From assembly GCA_947503785.1 (NCBI GenBank), contig CANNFB010000007.1, positions 50,175 through 114,174 of the forward strand: a DNA stretch of 64,000 bases, given 5' to 3'. Under the pieces are notes generated by a model, which saw nothing but the letters and a program-made list of their open reading frames with translations, made no database searches and had not been told where the DNA came from. Both the position numbers and the translations under genes were made by a program. This document shows positions 1 through 3,559 of the stretch, piece by piece; position 1 is the stretch's first letter, and every line of letters begins with the position of its first letter. This DNA comes from an uncultured Campylobacterales bacterium. Lineage in GTDB: Bacteria; Campylobacterota; Campylobacteria; Campylobacterales; Arcobacteraceae.

Positions 1-1
1 A

Positions 2-187
2 GAAAAGTATGATGATACTTATATTCAAGAAAAAGGTTATAGAAGAGATGCTGTTGTTTATCCTAAAGATATAAGTGTACAGTATGATAAAAATACCAGT
101 AAGTGTAAAGTTAAATTTACATTGCCAAAAGGCTCGTATGCTACAGTTCTAATTGAAAATATTGCTAATAGAAACCTAAGAGCTTAG
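2..187 (+). CDS. truD: tRNA pseudouridine synthase D, C-terminal fragment
   Basis: This is the 3' end of a gene that begins before the window; about 61 residues are visible, ending ENIANRNLRA. The tail RRDAVVYP followed by LPKGSYATVLIEN matches the conserved end of TruD, the enzyme that makes pseudouridine 13 in tRNA(Glu). The catalytic part is outside the window. The stop codon lies inside a long hairpin shared with the convergent thioredoxin gene. Confidence is moderate because only the last residues can be seen. Confidence 0.75.
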   Translation, partial: EKYDDTYIQEKGYRRDAVVYPKDISVQYDKNTSKCKVKFTLPKGSYATVLIENIANRNLRA

Positions 188-196
188 GTTTCTATT
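167..196. terminator. bidirectional hairpin between truD and thioredoxin
   Basis: A perfect inverted repeat: AATAGAAACCTAAG, two bases (AG), then CTTAGGTTTCTATT. It covers the stop codons of both convergent genes. A T-rich run follows only weakly on either side, so it is either a two-way terminator or a 3' end stabiliser. Confidence 0.6.
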
Positions 197-569
197 TAGT
201 AGAAGTGTTTGTAAAATATTCTTTTTCATATTTTTTTAGTTGTTCAACACTTCGAACTCCTAGTTGTTTACCAACAATTTGTCCATTTTCTAGATAAATT
301 AAAGTAGGAACACCTTTAATTTGAAATTGTGCTGCAAGAAGTTCTTGTTCTTGAATATCTAGTTTATAAATTTCTACGTTATCTTGTTTGCTTGTATTAT
401 ATTTTGTCAAGTTTTTACCTAAAACCTTACAAGACCCTCACCAAGTAGCATAAAAATCAATAATTACATTTTTGTTTTTAATTTTATCTTCAATATTTTC
501 AAGAGTTAAATGTTCAAATGCAAATAACGATGAAAAACTTAAAAAGAAAATTACAAGTAATTTTTTCAT
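192..569 (-). CDS. periplasmic selenocysteine thioredoxin (in-frame UGA)
   Basis: Read from the ATG at 569 with UGA (438-440) as selenocysteine, this is a 125-residue secreted thioredoxin. Residues 1-17 form a signal peptide (MKKLLVIFFLSFSSLFA). The active site is W43-U44-G45-S46-C47-K48, so the first redox residue of the usual WCxxC is encoded by UGA and the second cysteine is kept. The thioredoxin cis-proline motif GVPT and a normal C-terminus follow in the same frame. The start has a good site (AAGGATTAATAAAATG). A SECIS-like hairpin lies directly after the UGA. A plain gene caller would truncate this to 72 residues starting at a TTG. A pseudogene is the alternative, but the single stop sits exactly at the redox residue and is followed by the right RNA fold. 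Confidence 0.88.
404..432 (-). promoter_or_regulatory. bacterial SECIS-like hairpin
   Basis: On the minus strand the 5' arm TTGTAAGGTTTT (432-421) pairs with AAAACTTGACAA (415-404), with one A/G mismatch and one G-U pair. The apical loop is AGGTA (420-416). The loop GGU starts 18 nt after the UGA at 438-440, so it is the seventh codon after the UGA. From memory this is the same spacing as in E. coli fdhF. Such a loop recruits SelB with Sec-tRNA. Confidence 0.85.
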
Positions 570-596
570 TTTATTAATCCTTTATAAATTTTAGAA

Positions 597-602
597 AGTA
601 TA
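597..602 (-). promoter_or_regulatory. possible -10 box for the selenothioredoxin
   Basis: TATACT on the minus strand, 28 bases upstream of the ATG at 569. A convincing -35 is not obvious. It lies on the thioredoxin side of the 19-bp palindrome at 649-667. Confidence 0.35.
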
Positions 603-648
603 GTTTTTCTATGTGTAGTCTTTGTTAAGAAAAGATAAACAATTTAAA

Positions 649-667
649 TAAGACAAATTTTATCTTA
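649..667. promoter_or_regulatory. 19-bp palindromic operator between thioredoxin and selO
   Basis: TAAGACA-AATTT-TATCTTA, an inverted repeat with one mismatched pair, flanked by AAA and TTT. It sits between two divergent genes, so one bound protein could affect both. The same pattern occurs before sufB (twice) and nifS. The regulator is not in the window; an Rrf2/IscR-like Fe-S sensor is my guess. Confidence 0.6.
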
Positions 668-731
668 TTTTATAAATAGTTTTGATATCTTATTTTTTAC
701 AAATTATATATTTTATTAAAAGAGAAAAATT

Positions 732-2186
732 ATGAAATTAAATGACTTAAAAGTTGATATGGATTATTTCCATATAGATGAAAAATTATATCAAAAACTA
801 AACCCAACACCTTTGAAAAATCCAAAATTAGTATCTTTCAATAAAAAAGCCTGTGATTTAATAGATTTAGATTATGGTGAATGTGAAACACAAGAATTTT
901 TAGATCTTTTAAATGGTGTTAAAACTTTAGAAAATTCACAAAGCTATTCTATGGTTTATGCAGGTCATCAGTTTGGATATTTTGTTCCACAATTAGGTGA
1001 TGGACGTGCTATAAACTTAGGAAAGGTAAAGTCATGGCATTTACAAACAAAAGGCTCAGGACTTACTAAATACTCAAGACAAGGGGATGGAAGGGCAGTG
1101 CTTCGTTCTTCCATTAGAGAATATATTATGAGTGAAGCTATGCATGCTTTAGATATTCCAAGTACAAGAGCTCTAGCTATTATTGACTCAGATACCTTTG
1201 CTCATAGAGAATGGGAAAAAGAGTCTTGTTCTGTTGTGATGAGAATGTCACCTTCTTGGGTAAGAATAGGTACTTTCGAGTTTTTTGCAAATACAGAGAA
1301 CTCAAAAGAAAATACAACAAAACTTGCAGATTATGTAATAGAACAAAATTATGCACATTTAAAAGATGAAAAAAACAAGTATGAAAAAATGTTTTATTCT
1401 TTAGTTGATAAAACAGCTTCAATGCTCGCACGTTGGCAAGTATATGGATTTATGCATGGTGTTATGAATACTGATAACTTCTCAATGGCAGGTGTTACTA
1501 TTGATTATGGTCCCTTTGCTTTTATGGATTATTTTGACAAAAACTGTATTTGTAATCATACAGATGGGGAAGGGCGATATTCGTATAATAATCAGCCATA
1601 CGTAGCTAGATGGAATTTGAGTGTATTAGCTAATGCCTTAAGAGAAATATGTGATGAAGATAAACTTCTTGAATATTTGAAAACATTTCTTCCTCAGCAT
1701 GAAAATGTATACTTAGAACTAATAAATCAAAGACTTGGACTGCTTGCGAATAAAAGTGGAAATAGAAATCTTGATTTAATCTTAGAACTTTTAGGAGCAT
1801 TAGAAACTTCTAAAATGGATTACAATGTATTCTTTCACAGATTAACATCTTTAAAATCTTTTAATGATTTATCTTCAATTACTAACTTTTGTGTATTTAG
1901 AGAGCCTTTAGAAAAATGGTTTGATTCATATAGAAAAGTTTGTGAAAAAGAAGAAAGTAGTTTTGAGCAAAGACATGAAATAATGAAAATAGTAAACCCT
2001 AAATATATAATCAAAAACTATATGCTTCAAGAAGCAATTGAGTTAGCTCATACGGGAGATTATTCACTAGTAAATGATTTATTTGAAATTGCACAAAATC
2101 CGTTTGATGAACATAAAAAATATGATAGATACTCAAATCCTACACCAATGGAATTTGCAAATATAAAACTTTCTTGTTCTTCTTAA
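732..2186 (+). CDS. selO: protein adenylyltransferase SelO (YdiU family)
   Basis: A 484-residue member of the SelO/YdiU pseudokinase family, which transfers AMP from ATP to hydroxyl side chains and responds to oxidative stress in E. coli and mitochondria. Family signatures are clear: QLGDGRAINLG (87-97), the Lys region QTKGSG (105-110), RSSIREY (125-131), then MNTDNFS (245-251) and TIDYGP (256-261), which carry the metal-binding Asn/Asp and DYG motif. It ends KLSCSS, so the C-terminal position that is Sec in animal SelO is Cys here. It is divergent from the selenothioredoxin with a shared operator between them, and it is followed by a convergent terminator. Confidence 0.93.
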   Translation: MKLNDLKVDMDYFHIDEKLYQKLNPTPLKNPKLVSFNKKACDLIDLDYGECETQEFLDLLNGVKTLENSQSYSMVYAGHQFGYFVPQLGDGRAINLGKVKSWHLQTKGSGLTKYSRQGDGRAVLRSSIREYIMSEAMHALDIPSTRALAIIDSDTFAHREWEKESCSVVMRMSPSWVRIGTFEFFANTENSKENTTKLADYVIEQNYAHLKDEKNKYEKMFYSLVDKTASMLARWQVYGFMHGVMNTDNFSMAGVTIDYGPFAFMDYFDKNCICNHTDGEGRYSYNNQPYVARWNLSVLANALREICDEDKLLEYLKTFLPQHENVYLELINQRLGLLANKSGNRNLDLILELLGALETSKMDYNVFFHRLTSLKSFNDLSSITNFCVFREPLEKWFDSYRKVCEKEESSFEQRHEIMKIVNPKYIIKNYMLQEAIELAHTGDYSLVNDLFEIAQNPFDEHKKYDRYSNPTPMEFANIKLSCSS

Positions 2187-2189
2187 TCT

Positions 2190-2221
2190 AAGAGGAATAA
2201 GTCTGTGGAGCTATTCCTCTT
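2190..2221. terminator. convergent terminator between selO and yceI
   Basis: Ten-base arms AAGAGGAATA and TATTCCTCTT with a 12-base loop, placed just after the selO stop and before the yceI stop on the other strand. Confidence 0.65.
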
Positions 2222-2239
2222 GATTGATTATTTTATGGA

Positions 2240-2788
2240 CTACTTATATGGAATAGTAAATTCTATATTTACATCAGAAAATGATTTATTTCCATGAAAA
2301 CTTGCGCATTTTTTAGCAAAAGCCATAAATGAATTTTTCATACCAAAATCTAAGATTTCAATACTTCCCTTTGCTACAATCTTTGAATCTTCTATATCGT
2401 AAGACATTGAAACTTCTTTTGAAACTTCATTCATAGTTACATTTAAAACCATTTTTTTATTTTCAACATCAATACTTTTAATACTTCCTTTTATTACCTC
2501 AGAAGTTGCTAATGAAAATAGTGTGCTAGTAATATTTTTATCTCTAAATGGATTTTTAGAATCAAAAGAAGCGGTCTTGATTTCTACTTTTGCACTTGTT
2601 AAGAATTTTGATAAATCATCATTCTTTTCAATACTTAAGTTGATGTCTTTAAATGTTCCAGAAACAGGAGCTTTCTTTTCAGTTTTAAATCCAGTCCATT
2701 TAACACCTAAGTCACCATTTACCTCATACGCATTTAAATTTATACCTAATGCTAATGCTAAAATTGAGCTTAATAATATCTTTTTCAT
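2240..2788 (-). CDS. YceI family periplasmic protein
   Basis: A 182-residue secreted protein of the YceI family, a lipocalin-like barrel that binds long isoprenoid or fatty chains in known members. The signal peptide is MKKILLSSILALALGINLNA. It is followed by family features: YEVNGDLGVKWTGFK, KAPVSGTFKD, then FDSKNPFRDKN, and a C-terminal SFSDVNIEFTIPYK. I chose the ATG at 2788, seven bases after AAGGA, over a TTG two codons upstream that would sit on the ribosome site. It is divergent from the tetR-RND operon, and the paired operators upstream may control it too. Confidence 0.85.
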   Translation of the reverse strand: MKKILLSSILALALGINLNAYEVNGDLGVKWTGFKTEKKAPVSGTFKDINLSIEKNDDLSKFLTSAKVEIKTASFDSKNPFRDKNITSTLFSLATSEVIKGSIKSIDVENKKMVLNVTMNEVSKEVSMSYDIEDSKIVAKGSIEILDFGMKNSFMAFAKKCASFHGNKSFSDVNIEFTIPYK

Positions 2789-2853
2789 TTCCAATCCTTT
2801 TTGTTGTTTATATAAATGTACATGAATATTATTTAATTGTTACTTATTTCTAC

Positions 2854-2868
2854 TTGACCAGTGGTCAA
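2854..2868. promoter_or_regulatory. TetR operator 1 (perfect palindrome)
   Basis: TTGACCA-G-TGGTCAA, a perfect 15-bp inverted repeat between yceI and tetR. A related copy lies 54 bp downstream. This is typical of an autoregulated TetR/AcrR repressor next to its efflux operon. Confidence 0.75.
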
Positions 2869-2907
2869 TTTAAAATTATATTAAGAGTTTTGAAGCTATA
2901 ATTTTAA

Positions 2908-2922
2908 ATGACCAATAGTCAG
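2908..2922. promoter_or_regulatory. TetR operator 2 (imperfect copy)
   Basis: ATGACCA-A-TAGTCAG, matching operator 1 in both half-site cores (GACCA and GTCA). It lies 22 bp before the tetR start, where a bound repressor would block the operon promoter. Confidence 0.65.
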
Positions 2923-2944
2923 TTAAAATAAAAAAGGAAATTTT

Positions 2945-3559
2945 TTGCCAAGAATTGTTGATAAAGAACAAAAAAGAAAAGATATTGCACTTTCATGTAG
3001 TGACTTGATTTATGATGTTGGTATTAAGAAACTAACTGTAGCACAAGTAGCAAAAACTGCAGGAATTGGAAAAGGTACTATTTATCAGTATTTTGAAAAT
3101 AAAGAAGATATTATTTTTGAAATTATAAATATACATATTGAGGAATATCATAATAATTTTTTAAAATCTATAAAAGGTGTAAAATCAACAAGAGAGAAAG
3201 TTTTTTATTTTTTTAATTTTGTAATTGATGAAAGTGAAGAAAATCAAAAACATTTTAATGGATATAAAGAGTATTTATCAATTGTTTTATCAAATAGTGA
3301 TGAAAAAATGGTTGCTTTTAATAATACATGTAATGTATTTTTTCAAAATCAGTTAAAGAAAGTAATTCAAGATGGAATAAATGAGGGTGATTTAATGCCT
3401 AATGCTATTGATTTTTGTGTGCCTTTATTGATTTTTGAAAAAGGTCTTTTACTAAGAAAAATGACGGAGTTTGAGTTTCATCCAAAAGATGTATGTTTAG
3501 ACTTTATAAATAATTTATTTGATTTAATAGAAATAAAAAAGGAAAAAAAGAATGTATAA
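2945..3559 (+). CDS. TetR/AcrR family repressor of the RND pump
   Basis: A 204-residue TetR-type regulator. The N-terminal helix-turn-helix covers about residues 28-52 (LTVAQVAKTAGIGKGTIYQY), with the ligand domain after it. The start is TTG: AAGGA precedes it at a good distance, no ATG fits, and MPRIVDKEQK is a normal beginning. It overlaps the pump adaptor gene by 8 bp, so it is the first gene of the efflux operon. It probably represses its own operon through the two palindromes just upstream. The inducer is unknown. Confidence 0.88.
   Translation: MPRIVDKEQKRKDIALSCSDLIYDVGIKKLTVAQVAKTAGIGKGTIYQYFENKEDIIFEIINIHIEEYHNNFLKSIKGVKSTREKVFYFFNFVIDESEENQKHFNGYKEYLSIVLSNSDEKMVAFNNTCNVFFQNQLKKVIQDGINEGDLMPNAIDFCVPLLIFEKGLLLRKMTEFEFHPKDVCLDFINNLFDLIEIKKEKKNV

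Follow-up and report, generated by a model that had tools for sequence, protein, structure and literature searches.

A probable selenocysteine thioredoxin with a predicted export signal in Arcobacteraceae and its proposed link to DsbD

Introduction

Can a TGA codon inside a bacterial thioredoxin gene stand for selenocysteine (Sec), and what would a Sec thioredoxin do if it were exported? The question is raised by a locus of an uncultured marine bacterium of the Arcobacteraceae, found in a stretch of 64,000 nucleotides that is called here the window (assembly GCA_947503785.1, contig CANNFB010000007.1, positions 50,175 to 114,174). In the available text of the sources that treat them, Sec thioredoxins with a UxxC motif are an accepted selenoprotein family (PMC13188914, PMC9312934, PMC1794560); for Epsilonproteobacteria, a 2015 study gave a count of one Sec thioredoxin (PMC4607533, available part).

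The gene, its reading frame and its database entries

The gene occupies window positions 192–569 on the minus strand; the initial annotation had given no strand. Read with TGA as U, the frame runs from ATG through 125 codons to a TAA stop (569 down to 192), and its product begins with MKKLLVIFFLSFSSLFAFEHLTLENIEDKIKNKNVIIDFYATWUGSCK and ends in STK. The sole stop inside the frame is the TGA at 438–440 (minus strand), which is codon 44 and lies between W43 and GSCK, so that residue 44, at the first active-site position, is the predicted Sec. The predicted resolving cysteine of the UGSC motif, Cys47, is encoded by TGT at 429–431, and the two-residue redox motif of the protein is of the UxxC type. 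The proposal that one in-frame TGA joins the two halves of a thioredoxin as W-TGA-GSCK was borne out, 23 of 87 homologue rows having TGA at this very codon. Truncation under standard annotation had also been foreseen, and the sole listing under translation table 11 is indeed a 72-residue ORF with a TTG start (192–410, minus strand), which is without the active site. Fragments of 72 residues are found in databases as well, for example P0034 (NCBI name 'hypothetical protein') and P0032 ('thioredoxin 1').

Many database relatives (P0002–P0027) have Trp printed at the Sec position, probably through gene callers applying a TGA=Trp code to short contigs. For at least two of the resulting 'WW' patterns, P0012 and P0033, TGA was confirmed in the matching genome DNA (G095 and G062, respectively). 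The 'WW' of full-length relatives in general is probably TGA rendered as Trp, the metagenome relatives being judged from the protein alone. The thioredoxin gene and truD converge, and a perfect 14-bp inverted repeat at 167–196 overlaps the ends of both; it may be a terminator that they share.

Family, fold and predicted export signal

The read-through protein matches PF00085 (Thioredoxin) with 82.3 bits, against a Pfam cut-off of 23.5, and misses TIGR01068, the NCBIfam thioredoxin equivalog, with 88.9 against 96.8 bits. It is filed as a member of the thioredoxin family and not as this equivalog, because its score is below the curated cut-off. An AlphaFold2 model with C in place of U has the thioredoxin fold (pLDDT 89.4), and the structures closest to it are the thioredoxins of S. 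aureus (TMt 0.95), H. pylori, T. pallidum and E. coli. Cys47 and the loop proline P88 are invariant in a 28-row alignment, and residue 44 is encoded by TGA or a Cys codon in all 87 homologue rows.

Residues 1–17, MKKLLVIFFLSFSSLFA (519–569, minus strand), form a predicted export signal, recognised by its hydropathy pattern and with an inferred cleavage site. A signal-like N-terminus, by hydropathy only, is present in 23 of 23 TGA rows, and export of the Sec thioredoxin is predicted as likely.

Codon 44 among the relatives

The homologue set comprised 87 rows, 81 of them from 69 of the 104 family genomes (among the matches listed) and six from named loci. From the 104-genome search, only rows above about 88 bits entered the counts. 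The six named loci (L017–L022) were kept out of 80, the other 74 being more distant and left without a codon count, and a second copy at the G092 locus (L177) was likewise excluded. The proteins of 82 of the 87 rows are distinct. Codon 44 is TGA in 23 rows, TGT in 58 and TGC in 6, and each TGA row has exactly one stop, located at this codon. The TGA form occurs in 20 genomes of the family (among the matches listed for the 104 genomes searched). The number of independent TGA genes is taken as 22, because L017 (Poseidonibacter ostreae) apparently repeats genome G094 and L018 (P. lekithochrous) genome G093, besides the 82 distinct proteins; the genus group holding these two species also includes the window's genome.

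Median dN/dS is 0.21 before the TGA and 0.25 after it (10 pairs of five genomes), and purifying selection acts on both sides of the codon. In an order-wide sample of 248 genomes (match threshold E 1e-25), matches turned up in 15 genomes beyond the family; 14 of these have a Cys codon and one (G315) has TGA followed by the hairpin described below (locus L207).

A SECIS-like hairpin downstream of the TGA

Pair counts, RNAalifold and a synonymous-codon control all identify a SECIS-like hairpin at 404–432 (minus strand), just downstream of the TGA, that would act as SECIS element. Its 5-bp apical stem (411–425, minus strand) encloses the loop AGGUA (416–420), and AGGU lies 20 nt downstream from the U of UGA, at the same offset as in the fdhF SECIS of E. 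coli K-12, from which the hairpin differs in the letters and strength of its stem. RNAalifold on 18 distinct TGA segments returned the 5-bp apical stem with compensatory changes in three of its five pairs. In these segments 91.4% of the cells over 11 named pairs are paired, a value as high in none of 500 shuffles, and 18 cells are changed on both sides, a number that no shuffle (0/500) reached, nor did any reach the covariation score of the hairpin. Two further measures did not exceed the shuffles: of the 11 named pairs, 3 were changed on both sides, a count as high in 311 of 500, and the number of pair types was as high in all 500.

Since a stem of this kind might arise from coding constraint alone, the segments were compared with redraws of synonymous codons. 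All five apical pairs are present in 17 of the 18 distinct TGA segments versus 22.7% of redraws, and the mean folding energy is −6.64 versus −3.17 kcal/mol. For 57 Cys segments, excluding those with a fossil hairpin (see below), the corresponding values are 9/57 versus 7.4% and −2.52 versus −2.07 kcal/mol.

A hairpin model built from the 18 distinct TGA segments (R1) was run on 70 loci. It picked up the held-out TGA gene of another family (L207) with 43.6 bits (E 1.5e-8), and scored Cys rows at the homologous site with at most 22.8 bits, except for L097 and L018 (56.4 bits). R1 is regarded as specific to this thioredoxin family, because of five matches in the window's genome at E ≤ 10 the thioredoxin itself is the only one below E 1. 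It gave no match at the TGA of the same genome's own selD, in either the genome or the loci run; the selD TGA segment folds into a stem-loop with a register similar to that of the thioredoxin hairpin. A 26.5-bit R1 match in L022 was rejected as spurious, since it starts with TGC and its frame closes at once, and the four Rfam matches in window positions 1–3000 were all judged to be due to chance.

Selenocysteine machinery and proposed decoding of the TGA

The window's genome (2.76 Mb in 54 contigs, 100% complete according to a completeness tool) has selA and selB adjacent to each other on contig C4, both above their profile cut-offs. A tRNA-Sec gene adjoins them (49 bits versus an Rfam cut-off of 47), which ARAGORN also calls tRNA-SeC, with anticodon tca. 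The selD gene, also above cut-off, is on contig C17 (1049–1969, minus strand; locus L190). With an in-frame TGA early in its gene (VQAAG-U-AAKMGP), SelD of this genome is itself probably a selenoprotein. Among the TGA genomes of the family, selA is present in 18 of 20 (among the matches listed) versus 51 of the 84 others (Fisher p 0.016, relatedness ignored); the two without it are G097 (86% complete) and G098 (88%). selB is present in 20 of 21 TGA genomes, one of which belongs to another family, and G097 alone has no match. tRNA-Sec is above cut-off in 11 of the 21, with weaker matches in the rest, some of them beside selA.

Sequence features that mark a bacterial selenoprotein are found together, namely a TGA aligned with Cys of relatives, a SECIS hairpin, known from its sequence, and selA, selB, selC and selD. 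The initial annotation had read the gene as a genuine selenoprotein, had named the absence of sel genes and uniform stops or frameshift decay in relatives as arguments against this, and had suggested a genome search and an alignment as checks. All four genes are in the genome; TGA aligns with Cys codons (64 of 87 rows are Cys); the dN/dS values of 0.21 and 0.25 are not those of decayed relatives; and together with the conserved SECIS-like hairpin these results support that reading. The TGA at 438–440 is very likely decoded as Sec.

Other accounts of the TGA fare poorly. A chance in-frame TGA was rejected in view of its recurrence in 23 of 87 rows, by the Cys codons in the rest and by a hairpin exceeding synonymous redraws. 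The 72 residues obtained by standard gene calling would suit a gene broken by a nonsense mutation, or one of which the short ORF is the sole product, but the same single stop recurs at the Cys position in 23 rows and in 20 family genomes (among the matches listed), dN/dS is about 0.2 on both sides of it and the hairpin covaries, which makes a broken gene very improbable. That the host reads TGA as Trp is hardly credible, in spite of the full-length 'WW' proteins in databases: TGA terminates 4 of 46 mechanically called window ORFs of at least 200 residues, ARAGORN assigns the TCA-anticodon tRNA near selA to tRNA-SeC, and the aligned residue is Cys in 64 rows.

Probable gain and reversal of the TGA codon

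A tree was built with residue 44 masked, leaving 119 columns. One fork of 27 rows holds all 23 TGA rows together with four Cys rows, and codon 44 requires four changes on the tree, for which a single gain with three reversals is the simplest account. With an SH-aLRT of 87 for this fork and 119 columns, a single origin of the TGA lineage is likely, not proved. Of the 64 Cys rows, 58 have Pro ahead of the second Cys; all 23 TGA rows have Ala or Ser there. The probable history is a single origin of the TGA lineage, out of a CPPC thioredoxin linked to dsbD, with loss of the proline in the active site and about three returns to Cys. From thioredoxin mutants, Sec should lower the redox potential and loss of the active-site Pro should raise it; since these effects are opposite, the gain of Sec and the loss of Pro may offset each other.

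In genome G093 the gene beside selO has TGT at codon 44, followed by the same hairpin as in its TGA orthologues. At L097 (1630–1671) and L018 (6130–6171) TGT replaces TGA with an intact SECIS-like hairpin behind it, likely a recent Sec-to-Cys reversion that left a 'fossil' SECIS.

Further copies were noticed in some genomes. At L177 (G092, contig C1) a second thioredoxin, of Cys type with the motif CDIC, forms a tandem with the Sec form and separates it from selO. Another paralogue group, with FYSQT/FYTIG motifs (L160, L161, L170, L173), has TGA in G092, G093 and G094 and TGT in G095, and in several cases lies near genes for FKBP-type isomerases.

Gene neighbourhoods

The divergent neighbour of the Sec thioredoxin gene encodes a SelO/YdiU protein adenylyltransferase (732–2186, plus strand; PF02696, 420 bits; NF000658, 500.5 bits), and this arrangement may reflect joint stress control through the promoter region between the two genes. 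The C-terminus of the SelO protein is LSCSS, whose Cys, third from last, occupies a position at which Sec is present in some SelO proteins (PMC3281104, available part). Among the 23 TGA rows, the divergent arrangement with selO is seen in eleven, two (G087 and G088) occupy the dsbD slot and ten are at neither place, so that 21 of 23, like the window's own gene, are not beside dsbD.

The Cys thioredoxin, on the other hand, is directly upstream of dsbD on the same strand in 56 of 64 Cys rows, and a divergent rhodanese gene was detected with 46 of these 56. Adjoining genes for rhodanese, thioredoxin and DsbD were observed in many Arcobacteraceae (L129, 2206–4892, and equivalent loci). The window's genome has dsbD at 88545–90311 of contig C8, within a conserved block, with no thioredoxin between rhodanese and dsbD, where relatives have one; no second thioredoxin row of this genome is among the matches listed, which reach E about 4e-19. 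Seven of the 20 TGA genomes (among the matches listed) retain a separate dsbD-linked Cys copy.

Proposed function

Gene order and the replacement of the Cys form are the grounds for proposing a periplasmic Sec thioredoxin that acts as reductant of client disulfides, with DsbD as the source of its electrons. SelB and tRNA-Sec would read the UGA at residue 44, and the N-terminus would direct the protein to the periplasm. There the selenolate of U44 would attack client disulfides, Cys47 would resolve the mixed selenylsulfide and DsbD would reduce the U44–Cys47 bond. DsbD is proposed as reductant because dsbD is the neighbour of the Cys homologues and also, in two genomes, of the TGA form; the assignment of DsbD to this role is somewhat favoured. 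On the whole, it is likely that the product of 192–569 is a thioredoxin of 125 residues bearing a predicted export signal, in which TGA44 is read as Sec by means of the SECIS-like hairpin and which is likely reduced by DsbD.

The protein might also be a true, exported Sec thioredoxin that has another electron donor than DsbD or serves some other purpose, such as a role in peroxide stress shared with SelO. The 11 TGA rows divergent to selO, the ten at neither place and the separate dsbD-linked Cys copy in 7 of 20 TGA genomes (among the matches listed) point in this direction, and SelO homologues are tied to oxidative stress (PMC3281104, available part). The TGA form in the dsbD slot of G087 and G088, and a dsbD without adjacent thioredoxin in the window's genome, speak for DsbD, and such a separate role is regarded as possible but rather unlikely. 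SelO is taken to be cytoplasmic, and a direct partnership of SelO and the Sec thioredoxin across the membrane is unlikely on that account. A periplasmic oxidant of the DsbA type would be suggested by the lost active-site proline and by the Arcobacter genomes of one review, in the available part of which DsbC and DsbD are present and classical DsbA and DsbB absent (PMC4460558). Family, fold and DsbD linkage are, however, those of reducing thioredoxins, making an oxidant improbable.

Relation to known systems

The bacterial Sec thioredoxin WP_010956703.1 (PF00085, UxxC) belongs to the same family and has Sec at the first active-site position, according to the available text (PMC13188914, PMC9312934). 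From this type the window's lineage is set apart by its probable ancestry in a dsbD-linked Cys thioredoxin and its motifs of the WU[GPYFSH][SA]C type, and may be so by its predicted export signal. The dsbD-linked Cys thioredoxin of Arcobacteraceae (WCPPC) is homologous to the window's protein over the full length and has the same signal-like N-terminus, but differs in its Cys codon, in the Pro ahead of the second Cys and, mostly, in lacking the SECIS hairpin. Epsilonproteobacterial selenoproteins have a SECIS with a 5/6-bp apical hairpin, a layout that the window's hairpin fits, and the Sec thioredoxin counted among them may be of the same family as the window's protein (PMC4607533, available part).

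TsoB (NF045694), a rhodanese/DsbD fusion-like selenoprotein, is matched weakly by the window's protein in its thioredoxin part (40.5 bits versus a cut-off of 805); its parts, rhodanese, thioredoxin and DsbD, are separate adjoining genes in Arcobacteraceae. The UGSC-containing selenoprotein (NF041046; PMC13188914, available part) shares the letters UGSC with the window's protein. Membership of the latter (P0001) in NF041046 was rejected, this family being absent from the 14 matched at E 0.001. In the available text of the open-licence PMC literature no exported Sec thioredoxin tied to DsbD, Arcobacter, Campylobacterota or the periplasm was recognised, and the main text of a study on SelO neighbourhoods (PMC10364804) does not contain the word 'thioredoxin'. 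Sec thioredoxins are thus known as a kind, and the exported, DsbD-derived and reverting lineage seems to be new.

Significance

Database entries for the gene consist of a 72-residue fragment or, seemingly, of a translation with a false Trp. Read with Sec, the locus may belong to a selenium-based periplasmic reducing line of Arcobacteraceae, in which DsbD would feed a secreted Sec thioredoxin replacing the dsbD-linked Cys form, whose Cys copy is gone in the window's genome. In this line the SECIS would lie inside the active-site helix, the active-site Pro has been removed and several reversals would have followed, one leaving an intact SECIS after TGT; the arguments for and against this picture as a whole are about evenly balanced. 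What a bacterial thioredoxin gains from selenium is a question that matched Sec and Cys homologues address. Close homologues of both kinds, each apparently exported, are found in related genomes and at times within a single one, and one tree carries both gain and reversal, so that such pairs would allow a test of what Sec costs and what it brings outside the cytoplasm.
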